A DNA stretch of 64,000 nucleotides from positions 48,630,052 through 48,694,051 of the forward strand of contig CM055097.1 in NCBI GenBank assembly GCA_029204225.1, in the 5' to 3' direction. Below are positions 16,155 to 32,919 of the stretch, piece by piece (the stretch's first letter is position 1; the number at the start of each line of letters is the position of its first letter). The notes under the pieces were generated by a model. The model ran no database searches and was not told the origin of the DNA. It was given only the letters and a program-made list of their open reading frames with translations. The position numbers and the translations under genes are program-made. The DNA comes from Diphasiastrum complanatum (Eukaryota > Streptophyta > Lycopodiopsida > Lycopodiales > Lycopodiaceae).

Positions 16155-16204
16155 TGAGCATCCTAAAAACAACCGAAGTCCCGACTACATTTTGTCGGAC
16201 CTTT

Positions 16205-16289
16205 ACATTTTTCGCACCTTCGCATTTTTCACACCTTTGCATTTTTCGCACCTTCGCATTTTTCACATCTTTGCATTTTTCACATGTCG
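16205..16289. repeat. 17-bp minisatellite, five copies
   Basis: Units follow GCATTTTTCGCACCTTC with CG/CA and C/T variants, period 17. It abuts the presumed start of the family B LTR, so it may be target DNA or part of an LTR edge. Confidence 0.85.
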
Positions 16290-16814
16290 TGTACTTTTAG
16301 TACATCAGTGCTTTTCAAGGCAACATAATATCCATTGTAAGCTTTGTAGGCCCAAAAGGAGCTATTAGCCTTAAGAACAAGGCGGTTCCCTCTTTAGGCC
16401 CTCCAAAGTAATTAATAAGGATAATAGGCCAACAAGGGCCCAATGTAGCCTAAATAGTACTTAACAAGGGATAACTATCCCTCAAGATAGTTAATTTTAG
16501 TTAAGTAAGAGCACTGTCTATAACTAGGCAAGAGACATCAATTTGTGAATCTTTTGGCTCATTTGCAAGTGAGAGCTTCTAGCTTCCTTGTGAATGTGAG
16601 CCATAGGGATCTCCATTGCTAGGTCTCATGTGCCCTATCTACATGAATCCATGCTCATTTACATTGCTTTGTACTCTTCTTTTCATTGCTAATGTGATTC
16701 CATTGAGTCTCATTGTTTCTAGCTTTCTATGATTATGCTATCTTGAATGCTTTGTACTTTTCTTGCTCATAGCTTTAATTCCATTGTAATTGCTATTTGC
16801 TTAGATTTGGCACA
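16285..16814 (+). mobile_element. family B copy 1, 5' LTR (approximate ends)
   Basis: Presumed LTR from TGTCGTGTAC at 16285 to the CACA before the PBS. Its 3' part (AATTCCATTGTAATTGCTATT...GGCACA) matches the ends at 46.22-46.41 kb and, inverted, at 39.9-40.08 kb. Start is inferred, since no second LTR of this copy was found. Confidence 0.5.
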
Positions 16815-16824
16815 TAAAATTTCT

Positions 16825-16836
16825 TGGTATCAGAGC
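16825..16836 (+). other. family B PBS, copy 1
   Basis: TGGTATCAGAGC about ten bases after the LTR end, complementary to initiator tRNA-Met. The gap between LTR and PBS is larger than in the copia elements here. Confidence 0.75.
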
Positions 16837-16839
16837 ATA

Positions 16840-17616
16840 GATACTTGATTCATGATGATTCTATGAGAATTCCATTAGATTTGATGAGTTTATTGTTTTT
16901 GTAGCTTTCTTTTTGCTATTTTTTAGCTTTGATTTTTTCAGTTATGTTCAGACAAATTTTTAGCATTCAATTTAGTTTTTTATTTCTAATTTGATTCAAT
17001 AGCTTTGTAGAGCTTTGTTTCAGCTTTAATTTGCACCAATTTTCAAGGCATTTGGATAAGAGATGCAAAAGTTATTGCACTTTTCCCAAAGGCTATCAAA
17101 ATAGGTGACTAGGATTTTGCTTTCACTGGATTTGAATTTTTCAGATTTGATCTGAGTTTTTATTTCTAGTTTCTTTCCATAGGATTTTAGAGCATTGTCT
17201 TAGCTTTGATCTGATCCATATGGCAGGTCATTTAAATTAGTATCCAAAAAGTTATGACAAATCTTGATTCCTAGCTCTAGTTTTGTTAGTTTTCTTTCTT
17301 CAAAATTTTCAGTCCTGTTCTGTTGATAATTTGACCTACCAAATCACATTCAATCATTGATTTGATACTATAGCCTGATAGAGATTGTTGTTAGCTTTTC
17401 AAAGGTACTGAGTTGTGTGATTTGGATCAATATTGAGTAAGTTATGTTCAAATTTGTGGAGATGGGTCAGAATTGCCAGAATTTTGAAAAAAAAATTTGT
17501 GGATTTTTTGAAGTGAGAGAGAAGCACTTCAAGTTTTCAGGCTTGAAGTTTTGTTTCTGTTGTAAATTTTTTTCACATTTTTCAATTTGAAGTTTGATAA
17601 AAACAAAAAAAACAAA
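16840..17616 (+). mobile_element. family B leader, copy 1
   Basis: T-rich untranslated leader with repeated TTTGAT/CTGATCC motifs; the same type of sequence occurs at 46440-47000 in copy 2. No ORF. Confidence 0.6.
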
Positions 17617-17754
17617 AACCTAACCTCACCTACCTACAGCCTAACCTACATATAGCCCTAACCTAAACCTAAAAGTGTCCAAACCCTACGTGTTTCAGTC
17701 CTAATCCTAAACCCTAACCTGATTTAACCCTAAACCTAACCCCCTTCTCAGTCG
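17617..17754. repeat. degenerate telomere-like CCTAACC tract in leader
   Basis: About 140 bp rich in CCTAACC, ACCCTAACC and TTAACCCTAAACC, resembling the plant telomere unit CCCTAAA but not in perfect tandem. A shorter tract sits at the same place in family B copy 2 (47003-47040). Confidence 0.7.
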
Positions 17755-17883
17755 TGACTCGGCTACCGGTTCAGTTTGGCTCCACAACTGTTTCAGGATC
17801 ATAACTGTTTCAAGATCAATGAAAAGTTAGATGCAGTTAAAAGTTAGATGAGAAAGTCAGTGAGTTAGAAATTGCTGCTTGAA

Positions 17884-18001
17884 TTACAATGTTAAGATAA
17901 ATCGGTGGATTCTGATCGCTGGCATTGGCAAGTCATCACGATCATTGACAATTGCACGACAGGGTGTATAGCTAGCAGAGATAGTTTCAGCTCGCAGCCA
18001 C
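17884..18001 (-). pseudogene. coding-like antisense fragment, unidentified
   Basis: Open minus-strand frame continuing from the actin piece (contains [20 protein letters not shown]). It does not match actin after RGYSF, so it is probably another captured piece. I do not recognise the gene. Confidence 0.3.
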
Positions 18002-18076
18002 TGAAATGAGTACCCACGTTCTGTCATAATTTCCATCAGATAGTCTGTGAGATCACGCTCAGCAAGATCCACCCTT
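18002..18076 (-). pseudogene. captured actin fragment (antisense)
   Basis: Translates on the minus strand to [20 protein letters not shown] followed by YSF, diagnostic of actin (canonical [23 protein letters not shown], about residue 180). Only about 25 codons remain. It lies antisense in the 5' leader of retroelement family B, next to RAD23 and PPR pieces, so it is a captured fragment and not a gene. Substitutions versus normally invariant actin residues suggest decay. Confidence 0.8.
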
Positions 18077-18079
18077 CTG

Positions 18080-18232
18080 CCTCTGCCAGATCATCTAATT
18101 CTTGGCGCAACTCCTCGCGAACACTTGTTCCTCCAACACAGAATCTCTGAACAGAAGGTAGCGGTCTGCCAGTACCAGACTTAGCTTGCTAAATCACCAC
18201 ATCATCCACAAGCTGTACGTCAGCAACTTCGG
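18080..18232 (-). pseudogene. coding-like antisense fragment, unidentified
   Basis: Between actin and the RAD23 UBA half, one minus frame reads [12 protein letters not shown], then a stop, then GRPLPSVQRFCVGGTSVREE and an acidic helix-like [13 protein letters not shown]. It looks like protein-coding sequence, but I do not recognise the source. Confidence 0.35.
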
Positions 18233-18234
18233 CA

Positions 18235-18325
18235 GATCTGGAATACCATTGTACAGATATTCTACTGCTCGCTCTAGATTATTGTAGGTAGCACGCAGAG
18301 CACGAACAATGGTATCTCTATCAAA
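18235..18325 (-). pseudogene. captured RAD23 UBA-domain fragment, second half
   Basis: Minus frame gives [20 protein letters not shown] followed by [10 protein letters not shown], the second half of the first UBA domain of plant RAD23 (ubiquitin receptor of nucleotide excision repair and the proteasome; usual [22 protein letters not shown]). It is separated from the first UBA half (18595-18690) by a PPR-derived piece, so RAD23 sequence is split by a foreign fragment inside the captured block. Confidence 0.85.
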
Positions 18326-18339
18326 GGAATTACACCAGT

Positions 18340-18590
18340 TCTGAAGTCATTTACCAGCTTGCGCATGCGTTGAGGCTGGCCTCCATTCACGTATGCATGT
18401 AACAAGGAGGCATAGCTATTGTCGTTTGGAGCCAAGCCATTCTTCTCCATCATTGTAAAAATCGTTCGGCCAATCCCCAGTTTTCCTCCCTTGCAAATGC
18501 TGCCAACAGAGAATTGTAAGTAGCTATGTCAGCCTGGTATCATGCTTTCAGCATACCCTTGTACATTTGCAAGGCATGATCAGATGTCCC
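18340..18590 (-). pseudogene. captured PPR-protein fragment (antisense)
   Basis: Minus strand in two frames: ADIATYNSLLAAFAREENWG then, after a frameshift, IFTMMEKNGLAPNDNSYASL followed by [19 protein letters not shown]. These are consecutive 35-residue pentatricopeptide motifs (TYNSLLxAF...ME..G..PN..SYASLL.AY). It sits between the two RAD23 halves. Confidence 0.8.
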
Positions 18591-18594
18591 AACT

Positions 18595-18690
18595 CCCACA
18601 ACCCGTGTCCAGTAATTGTTGTATTATCTGTTCAACACCAGAACCTGCAACAAGATTGGAAGCAGCCTATCCATAAATTTCGCCTACAGG
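18595..18690 (-). pseudogene. captured RAD23 fragment, first half of UBA
   Basis: Minus frame shows GEIYG, a stop, AASNLVAGSGVEQIIQQLLD and TGCGSWD, matching the RAD23 segment that leads into UBA1 (YGQAASNLVAGxNLExxxQQxLDMGGGSWDR). The rest of the domain is at 18235-18325. Upstream on the same strand, to about 18760, an open stretch (ITALREMNLEYLTADAQPV) may be more captured coding sequence. Confidence 0.85.
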
Positions 18691-18794
18691 TTGTGCATCT
18701 GCAGTCAGATACTCCAAGTTCATTTCTCGAAGAGCCGTGATGCGAGGAAGAAACGATGAATCGCCATTAATCAGATGAATCTCCTTTCTCCCTC

Positions 18795-18919
18795 CGGTTG
18801 AGATTTCACGCGTTTACTCCGGTTGAGATGTCACGCCTTTCCTCCGGTTGAGACTTCACGTGTTTACTTCGGTTGAGACTTCACGTGTTTACTTCGGTTC
18901 AGATTTCATCCAATTCTTC
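18795..18919. repeat. 25-bp minisatellite CGGTTGAGA..., five copies
   Basis: Units start at 18795, 18820, 18845, 18870 and 18895 and follow CGGTTGAGACTTCACGTGTT plus ACTT/CCTC. Units with CACGTG create repeated G-box-like sites. The same CGGTTGAGAT core is repeated at 47741-47880 in family B copy 2, so the array belongs to the element. Confidence 0.88.
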
Positions 18920-19572
18920 TCCTCCGGTCGAGTTTATTCTCTCTCTACCCTACTTCGGTTACCCCTACTTGGATTACCTTTTTTTCTCTCTACCTATTCC
19001 CTGCTCAGAGAAAAAAAGAATTTCGTTTTTCTCAAAAAAAAAATTTATGGTTGCCCAAGCACCAAAACAATCCATGGATCTCAAAGTTTATACAATCCAA
19101 AAATTTTACAACCCTCTTTTTTAAGTTGAATGCTCGTTTTTCCTTCTCATTCTTTGAGCGCCCATAACTTCCTTGTTTGAGCTCAGATCCCAGTGCTATA
19201 AAAATAAAAAGTGATCAAAAAAATGAGCTTGACACTGCTAAGTTATTAAAAATGTGTCATTATTACTTTCAAATTTCTTTGAAGACCCCTTTTCTTGAGT
19301 CAGATTTTACGTATTTTTTATTAGTTATTTTTGAAGTTTCATATCTTTTCAGTTTGAGCTTAGAATTCGATGTTGTAAAAAGCAAAAGTTCTCAGTTTCA
19401 TATGAACTTCAAAGTTTTTCCATTCTCAGTTTTACTCATCGTAGAACTCTAAGTTTTAAGTGGGTGGAAAGACTGTCAAGATCTTATTTCCTTGCAAAAA
19501 TCTAACTTCGCAATTTTTTCTATAAGGGTCTTTATAAATTTACAGACTCATATTCTCCCTTGGTTTGTAAAA
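18920..19572 (+). mobile_element. family B region before the acidic ORF, copy 1
   Basis: T-rich, with CTCTCTACC motifs near 18940-18990 as in copy 2 (47.8-47.9 kb). No coding region. It may act as leader of the acidic ORF. Confidence 0.5.
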
Positions 19573-20472
19573 ATGGATTTTGATTTTGATTATGAGGTGG
19601 AATTTGATAATCAATCTGAATGTGATGAACAATCATATTGTGATCATCAATACGAGGAACGAAATGATGGTATTTCAGATCAATATTATCAGTATGGGGA
19701 GCACAAAGACAATAATTAAGATCAATATGAGCAACATGACTCATATGGAGACTGTTTGAGTGATGATGAAAACTATTCTGACCAAAATAAAAACCATGAG
19801 CTACACCAATCAAATCAATCTAATATTGATGGTGGTTTTTATAGTAGTGACAATGATGATGAGCTATATTTACGACAATCAAAACATCATCGCAATTCAC
19901 AAGGTGATGAGCACGCACAGTGGTACATGAGTTCTACGTGCCAACATGAACAATCGTCATCTCCTTTGCAACGTTGCATACAGAATAGCACAATCAATAA
20001 TGCCACTCCTCATACCCATTATGGTTCATCATTACTATTGTTCAATGGACAATTGAGCCTTATTGAAGAAGTGATGGAAGAACCGCAAGTTTTGAACCAA
20101 CAAGGAAACATATTAAGTAAACTGCATGCCACACAAGATCTGATAGTTGGAATGTTACGAAAAATGAAACAAGATCGGCAAGCTGACGAGGTGACATGGG
20201 AAAGATTGTTTGCTAGCCTATTTGGTGGACAAGAAAAAATTGCGGGAGCTGATCAAAGAGGTGATGAGCCATGTACATCGTTCCAACCACCATCTCTATC
20301 ACAAAATGTAACATCTTCTCAAGATGTCCGGAGAATTGAAATGGATAAGGGAAAACAGGTATTACAGAGTCATACTGGATATCCGGTTGGACTTGGAAAT
20401 AACAAGAAAACATTGGAACAACGAGCACAATTGAAGGTGAAAGAACAATCAGAGTCAAATTTCAGAGAGGTG
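19573..20472 (+). pseudogene. acidic Asp/Glu/Gln/Asn/Tyr-rich ORF of family B, copy 1
   Basis: Starts at the ATG at 19573 (MDFDFDYEVEFDNQSECDEQ) and stays in one frame to 20472, broken only by TAA at 19717-19719 (codon before DQYEQHDSYGD). The first 120 residues are very acidic and rich in Gln, Asn, Tyr and Ser, low in hydrophobics, so likely disordered. From about residue 170 it becomes more ordinary: LSKLHATQDLIVGMLRKMKQ and TWERLFASLFG look helical. It matches copy 2 (48497-50419) at the start (MD-D-E-NQSYCD). Its place between leader and pol-like sequence suggests a Gag role, but I see no zinc knuckle or capsid motif. The frame runs on into copia protease/pre-integrase sequence at 20473. 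Confidence 0.6.
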
Positions 20473-21803
20473 AAGTCCAAGTTGTTGTCCAACGTTCTCC
20501 ACGTTCCAAATCTGACCAAGAATCTACTCTCAATTAGCATAATCACTGATTCAGGTCGGAGGGTCGAATTCAATACAGACGGCTGCACAATTCTTGATAC
20601 AAACCAAAAGAATCTAGTCTTTGGAAGAAGAAGAAGCTATCTTTACAAACTCAACCACTGCTACTCTTCTAACAGTCAAGCTCTTCACACAAGTACTTTT
20701 GAATCAACTGACATGATGTGGCATTTCAGACTTGGCCATCTCAACTATAATAGTATTCCAAAAATGTCAGCTCAGAGTCTAGTATAAAATCTTCTGTAAG
20801 CCAACTTCTCCATGTGAAAGCTATATTATCAACAAGCATGCTAGAAGCCCTTTCATTTCAGACTCAGTTCATACTTCCAAGGGATTCCTAGTTGTACATA
20901 GCGACATTTGTGGCTCGATGTAGACTGCTTCGATTGGGGGGGCTCTCTATTTCCTAACTTTCATCTATGACTTCTCACGAAGGACTGCTACTTACTTTCT
21001 AAAGAACAAATCCGAAACATTCAAGTTCTTCAAGCTGTTCAAGGCATCTGTTGAAAATCAGACCCAGAGGAAGATCAAAGCTCTATGCACAGATAGAGGG
21101 GGAGAATATCTCCACATAATTCAAGGAGTTCTACAAGGCTAGTTGAATACATCAAATATACAACAAGCTACTCACCTCAGTCCAATGGTGTAGCTGAAAG
21201 AAAGAATCAAACACTCATCAAAAGTGCCAAGAGCGTGTTGGCCCATGCCTCTCTTCTAAAGAAGTTCTGGGTAGAAGTTGTTACTACAGCTGCCTATTAA
21301 ATTTCGCAGAATTGATCCATCACAAAGACCCTGAATGGCCAAACACCTTATGAGGTATGGACATGAATGAAACCATCACTAAAAAATATTTGGATGCATA
21401 GCTTACGCTCGGATTCCAGAAGATCTAAGAAAAAAGTTGGACAACAAAAGCAGAAAAATGATTTTCATCCGCTATTCCCCAAACCACAAGGCATACAAGC
21501 TCTACAATATGGATACCCAAAAGACATTCACCAGTAGAAATGTCATTTTTGTGGAAGACGAGTTCATCAACTACAAGGAAAAAGTTGTTGAAAAATCCGA
21601 CCCAAGGATCGAACTACCAAATTTTGACCCATGGATCCAACTGCAGAAAAGCAACATTGACTCTGACAATGAGTCAGAACCTCAATGAGTCAACCCATAT
21701 CAGAAGATCGAAGGTCGAACCAGTCTAGACAACCTCCATCCAGATTTATGGATGATCCTGCTCGCTACTTTGTTCAGAAACCAACCACCGTTTTTGAGGT
21801 GAT
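20473..21803 (+). pseudogene. copia protease-end, pre-integrase and integrase, decayed
   Basis: First part (to the stop at 20785-20787) is in frame with the acidic ORF: SNVLHVPNLTKNLLSISIIT and MMWHFRLGHLNYNSIPKMSA, i.e. the copia GAG-pre-integrase. Integrase follows in shifting frames: HSDICGSM, LYFLTFIYDFS, CTDRGGEY (catalytic Asp), a damaged AERKNQT region near 21195, then GCIAYARIPEDLRKKLDNKS and FTSRNVIFVEDEFINYKEKV. It stops at the start of RT (QPPFLR/TTVFEV) at 21.80 kb, where a family C LTR begins. At least six stops or shifts. Confidence 0.85.
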
Positions 21804-22487
21804 CTAGTGACTAAAAAGGCCAAAAACTAGTTTTCTAGACATATGACACAAGGCATCAATCTATTGATTGCATGAGCCACATCCTTTGGATAGGTGCCAT
21901 ATCACATGTGTAGAGGATAGCTCACATGTGTGGAATAAGCTGAAGTAGGCGAATTTTGACTTCTAGAAGATTTCCAAGTAGATCTCCATATAGAAGGAAA
22001 ATGGACCAAAAGTGCTCAAAATAGAAGGTTTTGTCCAAGTGTCAGTTTTGCATGATGAATCATCATATGAAAAAGCACCTTCACACATGTGGGATCAGAG
22101 GGATGATCAGTACCACGAGCTCCCACTTTTTGTATATATAGAGCCACATTTGGCCATAATCATTAAGAAACACCAATCTTGGTTTTGGAGGCAATTTTGT
22201 GTCAATCTCTCCATTTGTCTTGATTTTTCTTGGTTGTTTTGAGGTTCTATCATACTGTACTTGATTTTCAGGTTGGAGTCCGTACTCTGATAGGTTTTCA
22301 CACGTGTGAAACCAGCAAGTACATTTACCTTCATTAAATGATTGTTCTTGTTAGGATTATATGTCTAGAATTGATCTAGATTGATCTTAATCTTATGTAG
22401 ATTGATACATCAAGTAAATCTAACATTCAATCCCTCTTGAGGATCAGATTAGTATCCACTCTTGGTCCATTTTGTACTTTTTCCACA
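21804..22487 (+). mobile_element. family C LTR, 5'-truncated solo copy
   Basis: Aligns along its whole length with 29446-30110 and 32254-32919, from CTAGTGACTAAAAAGGCC to TTTTTCCACA. It lacks the first 165-170 bp of the LTR. TATATATA at 22133-22140 is the same promoter element as in the full LTRs. It lies between copia integrase/RT-start (before) and copia RT-end (after). Confidence 0.9.
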
Positions 22488-29277: not shown

Positions 29278-30110
29278 TGTGAAAAATGCAAAAATAAGCT
29301 TGGTAGAGGCCAAAAATCTTGTATATAGATAAACACACATGTGTGGATCCTGTTCCCACGTGTGAAACTAGTGTACTTGTCATGTACCATAATCATATAG
29401 GATGTACATATGATTTAATTCAAGTTCTAGTGACTAAAAAGGCCAAAAACTAGTTTTCTAGACATATGACACATGGCATCAATCTATTGATTGCATGAGC
29501 CACATACTTTGGACAGGTGTCATATCACATGTGTAGAGGATAGCTCACATGTGTGGAATAAGCTGAAGTAGGCGAATTTTGACTTCTAGAAGATTTCTAA
29601 GTAGATCTCCATATAGAAGGAAAATGGACCAAAAGTGCTCAAAATAGAAGGTTTTGTCCAAGTGTCAGTTTTGCATGATGAATCATCATATGAAAAAGCA
29701 CCTTCACACATGTGGGATCAGAGGGATGATCAGTACCATGAGCTCCCACTTATTGTATATATAGAGCCACATTTGGCCATAATCAGTGTGAGACACCAAT
29801 CTTGGTTTTGGAAGCAATTTTGAGTGATTCTCTCCATTTGTCTACATTTGTTTTGATTGTTTTGAGGTTCTATCAATGTGTACTTGATTTTCAGGTTGGA
29901 GTCCGTACCCTGACAGGTTTTCACACATGTGAAACCAGCAAGTACATTTACCTCCAATAAATGATTGTTCTTGTTTGGATTTTATGTCTAGAATTGATCT
30001 AGATTGATCTTAATCTTATGTAGATTGATAGATCAAGTAAATCTAACATCCAATCTCTCTTGAAGATCAGATTAGGATCCACTCTTGGTCCTTTTTGTAC
30101 TCTTTCCACA
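29278..30110 (+). repeat. family C 5' LTR
   Basis: 833 bp. TATATATA at 29756-29763 is the likely promoter, so U3 covers roughly the first 500 bp. Several CACATGTG/CACACGTGTG palindromes lie in U3 and near the end. Confidence 0.95.
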
Positions 30111-32085: not shown

Positions 32086-32919
32086 TGTGAAAAATGCAAA
32101 AATAAGCTTGGTAGAGGCCAAAAATCTTGTATATAGATAAATACACATGTGTGGAGCCTGTTCCCACATGTGAAACTAGTGTACTTGTCATGTACCATAA
32201 TCATATAGGATGTACATATGATTTAATTCAAGTTCTAGTGACTAAAAAGGCCAAAAACTAGTTTTCTTGACATATGACACAAGGCATCAATCTATTGATT
32301 GCATGAGCCACATCCTTTGGATAGGTGTCATATCACATGTGTAGAGTATAGCTCACATGTGTGGAATAAGCTGAAGTAGGCGAATTTTGACTTCTAGAAG
32401 ATTTCCAAGTAGATCTCCATATAGAAGGAAAATGGACCAAAAGTGCTCAAAATAGAAGGTTTTGTCCAAGTGTCAGTTTTGCATGATGAATCATCATATG
32501 ACAAAGCACCTTCACACATGTGGGATTAGAGGGATGATCAGTACCACGAGCTCCCACTTATTGTATATATAGAGCCACATTTGGCCATAATCAGTGTGAG
32601 ACACCAATCTTGGTTTTGGAAGCAATTTTGAGTGATTCTCTCCATTTGTCTACATTTGTTTTGATTGTTTTGAGGTTCTATCAATGTGTACTTGATTTTC
32701 AGGTTGGAGTCCGTACCCTGACAGGTTTTCACACGTGTGAAACCAGCAAGTACATTTACTTTCGATAAATGATTTGTTCTTGTTTGGATTTTATGTCTAG
32801 AATTGATCTAGATTGATCTTAATCTTATGTAGATTGATAGATCAAGTAAATCTAACATCCAATCTCTCTTGAGGATCAGATTAGGATCCACTCTTGGTCC
32901 TTTTTGTACTTTTTTCACA
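32086..32919 (+). repeat. family C 3' LTR
   Basis: 834 bp, aligned end to end with the 5' LTR; TATATATA at 32564-32571. Confidence 0.95.

Follow-up and report, generated by a model that had tools for sequence, protein, structure and literature searches.

Antisense patchworks of host-gene fragments in the leader of an LTR retrotransposon family of Diphasiastrum complanatum

An LTR retrotransposon family in the genome of Diphasiastrum complanatum has almost certainly captured spliced host mRNAs, fragments of which it carries in its leader, at a recurring place and in antisense orientation. The copy described first lies in a window of 64,000 nucleotides (the whole stretch of DNA analysed, C6:48630052-48694051; the searched assembly comprises 1.745 Gb in 5,176 contigs), where positions 17884-18770 form a minus-strand patchwork of at least six sources, according to translation of that strand and alignments within the same genome. 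An initial annotation had proposed a RAD23-PPR-RAD23-other-actin mosaic from four or five sources; both lines of evidence bear out the minus-strand mosaic and its multiple origin, while the count has risen.

Composition of the mosaic

The named sources are actin, eIF4A (two pieces), RAD23 (split by PPR), PPR, and Sec1/KEULE, to which an unnamed piece of 53 nt is added. Followed along the minus strand from 18779 to 18004, the order is Sec1/KEULE, RAD23, PPR, RAD23, 23 nt, eIF4A, eIF4A, the 53-nt piece, and actin. Overlapping coordinates of neighbouring pieces denote bases common to both sides.

17803-18003, minus strand: tail in common with the EF1a/actin lineage (L021-L025) by alignment, source gene unnamed
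18004-18075, minus strand: actin exon fragment (same-genome match and PDB)
18062-18114, minus strand: unnamed 53-nt fragment, matched otherwise only in element L028, no gene
18106-18141, minus strand: eIF4A, downstream piece (donor-exon match)
18139-18197, minus strand: eIF4A, upstream piece (donor-exon match)
18198-18220, minus strand: 23 nt without assigned origin
18221-18322, minus strand: RAD23, 3' half, spanning a precisely removed intron
18314-18591, minus strand: PPR fragment within the RAD23 exon
18585-18695, minus strand: RAD23, 5' half
18692-18779 or beyond, minus strand: Sec1/KEULE fragment, one intron gone

The Sec1/KEULE fragment had been overlooked in the earlier source list, and it carries the mosaic to 18779 or further rather than to the previously given end at 18770. 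The piece formerly called unidentified contains eIF4A in addition to the 53-nt piece. Identity to the genome amounts to 96 % over 279 bp for PPR, 96 % and 93 % for the RAD23 pieces, 92 % and 94 % for those of eIF4A, and 90-92 % over up to 72 bp for actin, and such matches lie far above chance. Profile and structure searches point to the same families: PPR (E 8.5e-20) and actin (E 2.6e-5) were matched against PDB chains, and Pfam returned UBA for RAD23 (E 5.8e-8), a domain that is read across both RAD23 halves, DEAD-box for the eIF4A donor exon (E 4.1e-25), and Sec1 from the longer sister copy L020 (E 3.3e-10). The labels KEULE, eIF4A, RAD23, EF1a, and calmodulin are the names that we take these genes to bear; the Pfam models behind them are Sec1 (L020), DEAD box (donor exon), UBA, GTP_EFTU, and EF hand, respectively.

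The LTR element carrying the mosaic

The patchwork sits behind an LTR and a primer binding site, and the constant parts of the element frame it on both sides.

16285-16819, plus strand: 5' LTR, TGTCGTG...CACATAAAA
16825-16836, plus strand: primer binding site TGGTATCAGAGC, read directly
16837-17671, plus strand: leader common to the family; members with other cargo cease to be homologous at 17647-17672
17624-17750, plus strand: CCTAAACC-rich degenerate tract, left cargo edge (by eye; tandem part 17624-17665)
18792-18908, plus strand: 25-bp minisatellite CTCCGGTTGAGATTTCACGCGTTTA, right cargo edge
18960-20430, plus strand: 3' module common with other members, anonymous reading frames

The primer binding site is presumably of the initiator-Met tRNA type. 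Two complete relatives, 6.6 and 6.9 kb in length, possess LTR pairs (start TGTCATG, end CATGACA or CATGTGACA) flanked by 5-bp target site duplications (TATTG and ATAGA), and the polypurine tract AAGTAGGGGGAG precedes the 3' LTR in L011 and L021, so that the family shows the hallmarks of LTR retrotransposons. The window copy has only its 5' LTR, no second family LTR being found in the window, and its homology to other copies ends at 20430/20431. Pfam gave no match on either strand in the window leader or in the 3' modules of the window, L011, and L022, and thus no gag or pol domain in these modules; the family is apparently non-autonomous. The LTRs of the two complete relatives have diverged by K2P distances of 0.037 and 0.025, which, at a substitution rate of 1.3e-8 per site and year, corresponds to insertions about 1.4 and 1.0 million years ago, and to older ones at the slower rates of woody plants.

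That the LTR and primer binding site at 16.3-16.8 kb might stem from an unrelated insertion is contradicted by L010 (C3:66.37 Mb), which aligns to window positions 16285-20431 as a single block and hence holds the LTR and the mosaic as the same unit. L009 aligns in two blocks; together with L010 it represents one insertion that was duplicated with its flanks at 98 %. Mosaic parts are also present on C14 (L011, from window position 18196 onwards) as well as on C8 and C184 (L012 and L013, both without 18163-18519). At the level of genome sequence, these alignments demonstrate that the mosaic belongs to the LTR element and moved with it.

Several further features were seen in the window. A 17-bp tandem repeat, CCTTTGCATTTTTCACA, occupies 16200-16284, with five copies in the stretch scanned, and ends at the base immediately preceding the 5' LTR, and a broken copia-like coding stretch (20431-21687, by eye) adjoins the end of element homology. 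Another repeat, about 0.7 kb long and possibly representing a further LTR family, occurs three times (21803-22487, 29426-30110, and 32234-32919; 94-98 % alike), and arrays with 8-bp spacing lie at 2271-2639 and from 29037, with an inverted match at 1104-1210.

Donor genes and intron loss

Donor sites were located on C15 and C13 for RAD23, C4 and C1355 for PPR, C7 and C4120 for eIF4A, C3 for KEULE, and C14 and others for actin. The pieces do not derive from a single contiguous locus, the donors being scattered over different chromosomes, in line with the unrelated sources proposed earlier. The clearest evidence for the nature of the template comes from RAD23 and KEULE. In the C15 RAD23 gene an intron separates TACAAT from GGTATTCC, and the window joins TACAAT directly to GGTATTCC, as read from the letters themselves; in the matched stretch of KEULE, exons 1 and 2 are fused in the window. 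The longer KEULE stretch of L020 consists of five exon matches (88-100 % identity each, 97-100 % in four of the five), which lie 194 bp, about 19.3 kb, 143 bp, and about 350 bp apart in the genome; 10 nt without a match lie between the last two of them in the cargo. The earlier statement that continuous pieces lack introns thus holds for both genes, and the loss of these introns indicates that spliced mRNA served as template.

For further genes the corresponding observation is drawn from match coordinates only: the cargo is continuous where clathrin heavy chain genes have gaps of 173-179 bp (C9, two places, and C8), EF1a genes gaps of 96 and 99 bp (two places on C2), and HSP70 genes gaps of about 190-245 bp (C3, two, and C9). 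Clathrin and EF1a lend support, if less clearly, and HSP70 appears to be the weakest case. The gene nearest to its first half (C3:34519349, 96 %) does have the gap; four gapless matches (C23 twice, 92 %; C16 and C4238, 88 %), however, make a gene lacking that intron a possible donor. Contiguous matches by coordinates also exist for clathrin (C23 two, C28, C13 two, C12) and EF1a (C14 two), which we take for other elements or retrocopies. Those apparent donors of 17803-18075 with an intron of about 134 bp that were retrieved (L021-L025) proved to be other family elements or rearranged pieces, not genes. No upstream exon of the best RAD23 donor (C15) was found within the 4.8 kb searched, no poly(A) or poly(T) track was recognised by eye in the cargo, and the matches in the search for a calmodulin donor (L035) were dominated by a high-copy repeat, about 100 bp long, that lies within the cargo.

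Junctions and nested capture

The pieces meet at short sequences that are common to both sides, as template switching would leave them: TGGGACA (7 nt) from RAD23 to PPR, GACAGA (6 nt) from PPR back to RAD23, CTG (3 nt) between the two eIF4A pieces, where 125 nt of the exon have been lost, GGA or TGCG (3-4 nt) between eIF4A and the 53-nt piece, and TGGATCTTGC (10 nt) between the latter and actin, element L028 standing in for the gene behind the 53-nt piece at two of these five junctions. The shared bases total 29 nt, which none of 300,000 sets of random joins in the same sequences reached (maximum 23), nor did any such set have at least 3 nt at all five joins. This test excludes in-register self-overlap of eIF4A; if it is allowed, P is 0.00075 for a total of 30. 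A sixth join, between KEULE and RAD23, shares CACA as judged from the exon of the C13 RAD23 paralogue. It coincides exactly with the start of a RAD23 exon and falls one base before the end of a KEULE exon; trans-splicing, which this position suggests, was considered and rejected, since the upstream exon of the C13 paralogue ends in ...CCACACA and a switch at CACA in spliced RAD23 mRNA explains the join.

RAD23 is left and resumed at one and the same GACA, which is present at both ends of PPR; PPR therefore probably entered later, into RAD23 that had already been captured, and the notion of a later capture splitting an earlier one is upheld. The window KEULE piece moreover has approximately the same starting base as its counterparts in L018 and L020, and the join at which the actin piece ends recurs in L022 (by alignment also in L021, L023, and L024), from which it follows that two older lineages each contributed an end to the window cargo, with further pieces placed in between. 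The PPR insertion into RAD23 is probably newer still.

Cargo across the family

Judging by sequence matches, the LTR family is large, with 3,333 first-look candidates by LTR query and 1,833 by the leader alone (40 scored each). Twelve of the 40 scored leader matches were read. They share the leader up to 17647-17672, with the exceptions of L029 and L030, which share the window tail too, and nine of the twelve return to the window 3' module at 18837-19165 (at 20048-20061 in L033 and L035); in L030, L037, and L040 no 3' module was found within the 3 kb read. Between these constant parts the cargos differ from locus to locus. The mosaic, called unusual in the initial annotation, is no one-off; it exemplifies a family trait, with differing cargos at the same spot.

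Ten cargos of this leader-picked set were scanned, L032 (same cargo as L034) and L029 (almost no cargo) being left out, and five of them contain a nameable host gene:

L031: HSP90 and clathrin heavy chain
L033: Coq4
L035: calmodulin
L038: HSP70 and biotin synthase
L040: pinin and Cpn10

Together with seven regions found through the mosaic (the window, L011, L018, L020, L022, L025, and L028), 17 regions were scanned. Host genes were named in ten of these, eight scanned singly and two, L018 and L025, because their DNA resembles that of L020 and L022, and no host gene was named in the other seven. The 14 host genes are KEULE, RAD23, PPR, eIF4A, actin, EF1a, calmodulin, HSP70, biotin synthase, HSP90, clathrin heavy chain, pinin, Cpn10, and Coq4. 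The whole L031 cargo recurs at five further places (91-95 %), so that cargo-bearing elements evidently multiply or get duplicated.

In L034, L036, and L039, Pfam at a loose threshold (three frames per strand) returned nothing but sub-cut-off matches to eIF3_p135 (E 0.028; L034, minus strand) and DUF1652 (E 0.071; L036, plus strand), and a PDB search with one minus-strand frame each of L037 and L036 named nothing. A DEAD-box-like piece noticed by eye in L031 received no support from Pfam and was left out of the count. A long acidic antisense frame in L037 (1330-1709), for which neither Pfam nor PDB gave a match, may belong to a further host gene. The calmodulin cargo of L035 is split at 1100-1440 by the repeat of about 100 bp mentioned above, which is tandem elsewhere in the genome, and at C13:18514145-18514464 pieces of eIF4A and HSP90 lie side by side, by coordinates antisense to the LTR match at C13:18510313. 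L024 holds a rearranged EF1a/actin cargo whose nearest LTR has the opposite of the usual orientation; it was not counted.

Antisense orientation

In all cargos where a host gene was named and its orientation is readable, that gene lies in antisense, which applies to all 14 named genes (14/14). Coin tossing would give this with a probability of 6e-5 for the genes and of 0.8 % for the seven out of seven cargo lineages (KEULE, EF1a/actin, L031, L033, L035, L038, and L040; hand calculation). As the lineages share pieces, the 14 genes do not amount to 14 independent tosses, and the figure for lineages is the safer one.

On the minus strand, Pfam returned GTP_EFTU, Sec1, EF-hand models, HSP70, Cpn10, pinin, UBA, Coq4, and marginally Atrophin-1, to which PDB added HSP90, clathrin, biotin synthase, PPR, and actin. 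The plus strand (17 regions, 51 frames) yielded four families of retroelement type (Pol_BBD, gag_pre-integrs, DUF4219, and Retrotran_gag_3) and marginally NAD-GH; NAD-GH and Atrophin-1 are taken for low complexity, and Pfam found no credible sense-strand host gene in the 17 regions. Plus-strand controls against PDB, which cover two frames of L031 and one of L038 while the other PDB names stand without such a control, gave no match at E 0.1.

Mechanism and alternatives

The observations to be accounted for are the donors, the loss of introns, the bases shared at junctions, the co-mobility with the LTR, the recurring place, and the antisense bias. Donors, intron loss, and co-mobility support the earlier idea of serial capture of several unrelated transcripts by one retrotransposon. 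The mechanism that we somewhat favour is template switching, guided by microhomology, from the element to packaged host mRNAs, and the simplest stage for it is plus-strand synthesis. Spliced host mRNAs would enter the element particle, where reverse transcriptase may pause in or near the repeat-rich leader, jump to an mRNA at a few matching bases, copy a stretch, jump again, and finally return to the element. The chimeric DNA would then integrate, and later copies could inherit the patchwork, lose parts of it, or gain pieces inside old ones.

When a minus strand changes over to an mRNA in the usual course of reverse transcription, the insert comes out in sense; for an antisense insert, mRNA has to serve as template for the plus strand, or the complement of an mRNA for the minus strand. 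The switch is hence most simply placed in plus-strand DNA synthesis, in which a strand growing on mRNA would carry its complement. The cargo starts about 0.85 kb behind the primer binding site and is bounded by CCTAAACC-rich and 25-bp repeats; being thus flanked, and located in a part copied by the plus strand after transfer, it makes plus-strand switching the preferred choice. We infer this step solely from insert orientation, and the packaging of mRNAs, like any function of the cargo, is presumed. A bolder version, which we put forward tentatively at best, sees a dedicated cargo hot spot, situated between the leader and the 3' module, where plus-strand synthesis regularly leaves, copies several packaged mRNAs, and returns, building an archive that is always antisense and perhaps gives rise to antisense RNA.

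Switching might also occur in the synthesis of either strand with only antisense inserts surviving, which we deem unlikely, although selection against sense inserts would yield the same pattern as plus-strand switching. Sense exons in the leader could add start codons, small-RNA targets, or processing signals, and inserts in sense orientation might impair expression at the position of the cargo, which is flanked by the LTR and the 3' module. That sense capture is possible follows from published transductions, which according to a review are usually in gag-pol sense (PMC7264820). Against such selective survival speaks that no sense host insert was detected by Pfam in the 17 regions, even though badly damaged cargos are among them. 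Distinctly less probable is the involvement of an element RNA transcribed in antisense, from the 3' module to the LTR, that recombines or is co-reverse-transcribed with host mRNAs of the same polarity. It would likewise result in a single polarity, some plant LTR elements do have antisense promoters (PMC7264820), and GA-rich tracts occur on that strand in several cargos; yet it needs an extra RNA and a route back between the constant parts.

Very improbable is the insertion of a gene-fragment-laden DNA transposon or Helitron into the leader. Pack-MULEs have terminal inverted repeats, and no inverted repeat of at least 14 nt brackets the cargo in 17600-19100, the sole pair lying inside the PPR piece. 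The removed introns speak against it, also in the case of a Helitron, as do the common bases at which pieces meet and the differing cargos between the same element parts; what commends it is that Helitrons and Pack-MULEs of maize and rice hold many captured genes (PMC7264820). An assembly artefact or chance similarity has negligible probability, the whole mosaic or large parts of it being present at C6, C3 (two places, one duplicated insertion), C14, C8, and C184.

Here a single family offers many cargos with their donors still at hand, so that strand, joins, and capture order are readable, and it opens the testable questions at which step of reverse transcription non-homologous switches take place and which mRNAs enter particles. 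If the cargo-site reading is true, the copies would form a layered archive of recently packaged mRNAs, perhaps with antisense RNA against those genes. More speculatively, if the leader is transcribed, its antisense host pieces might serve as a source of small RNAs that target housekeeping genes.

Comparison with known systems

In the papers cited here, as far as their available text goes, host-gene capture by plant LTR elements is usually in sense and described as single cases or in surveys. Maize Bs1 likewise combines fragments from several unrelated genes in one LTR element (PMC13317346) and contains exons only (PMC4717578); its three host-gene transductions form part of a transcribed and translated chimeric gene (PMC13317346). 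The present family shares with Bs1 the intron-free host fragments inside the element (KEULE and RAD23; others from coordinates), whereas its named pieces are all antisense, deviating from the usual, if not strict, sense orientation of the Bs1 type, and lie in the leader, at a place that recurs in the family with different cargo. The soybean TRIM GmaRetroS15 is similar as an LTR element without genes of its own that holds pieces of three genes, among them a casein-kinase piece without introns, and has 5-bp target site duplications (PMC4717578). Gene-bearing TRIMs, however, measure 1.2-1.4 kb (PMC4717578) as compared to 6.6 and 6.9 kb for complete members here, and the text description of GmaRetroS15 includes neither nested capture nor a constant cargo place or an antisense rule (PMC4717578).

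The model of Tan et al. (2016), as described in PMC5408686, invokes LTR-mediated retroposition with template switching at microsimilarities and agrees with ours in that mRNA is copied after a switch at short common bases and that several switches are possible; that description makes no mention of antisense serial mosaics at a fixed place. Antisense extra DNA is also known from the aORF-3R frames of plant LTR elements (Grande, RIRE2, Retand), which lie between pol and the 3' LTR and have no host relatives outside transposable elements (PMC7264820), in contrast to the host fragments with broken frames in the 5' leader found here. Pack-MULEs resemble the family as collections of gene fragments inside a mobile element but contain exons and introns (PMC4717578), while donor introns were not seen in the present cargo, nor do terminal inverted repeats (minimum 14 nt) bound it.

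By term search, the main text of a survey of captured genes in rice and sorghum (PMC3726574) contains neither "antisense" nor "orientation", and in the open-licence literature (titles and abstract starts, with the terms used) no paper was found on serial mosaics of host pieces that lie in antisense at a fixed position of the leader. Plant LTR elements with intron-free pieces of several genes are thus known from Bs1 and GmaRetroS15, and what the family described here adds is the antisense orientation of all named pieces, at a recurring place in the leader.
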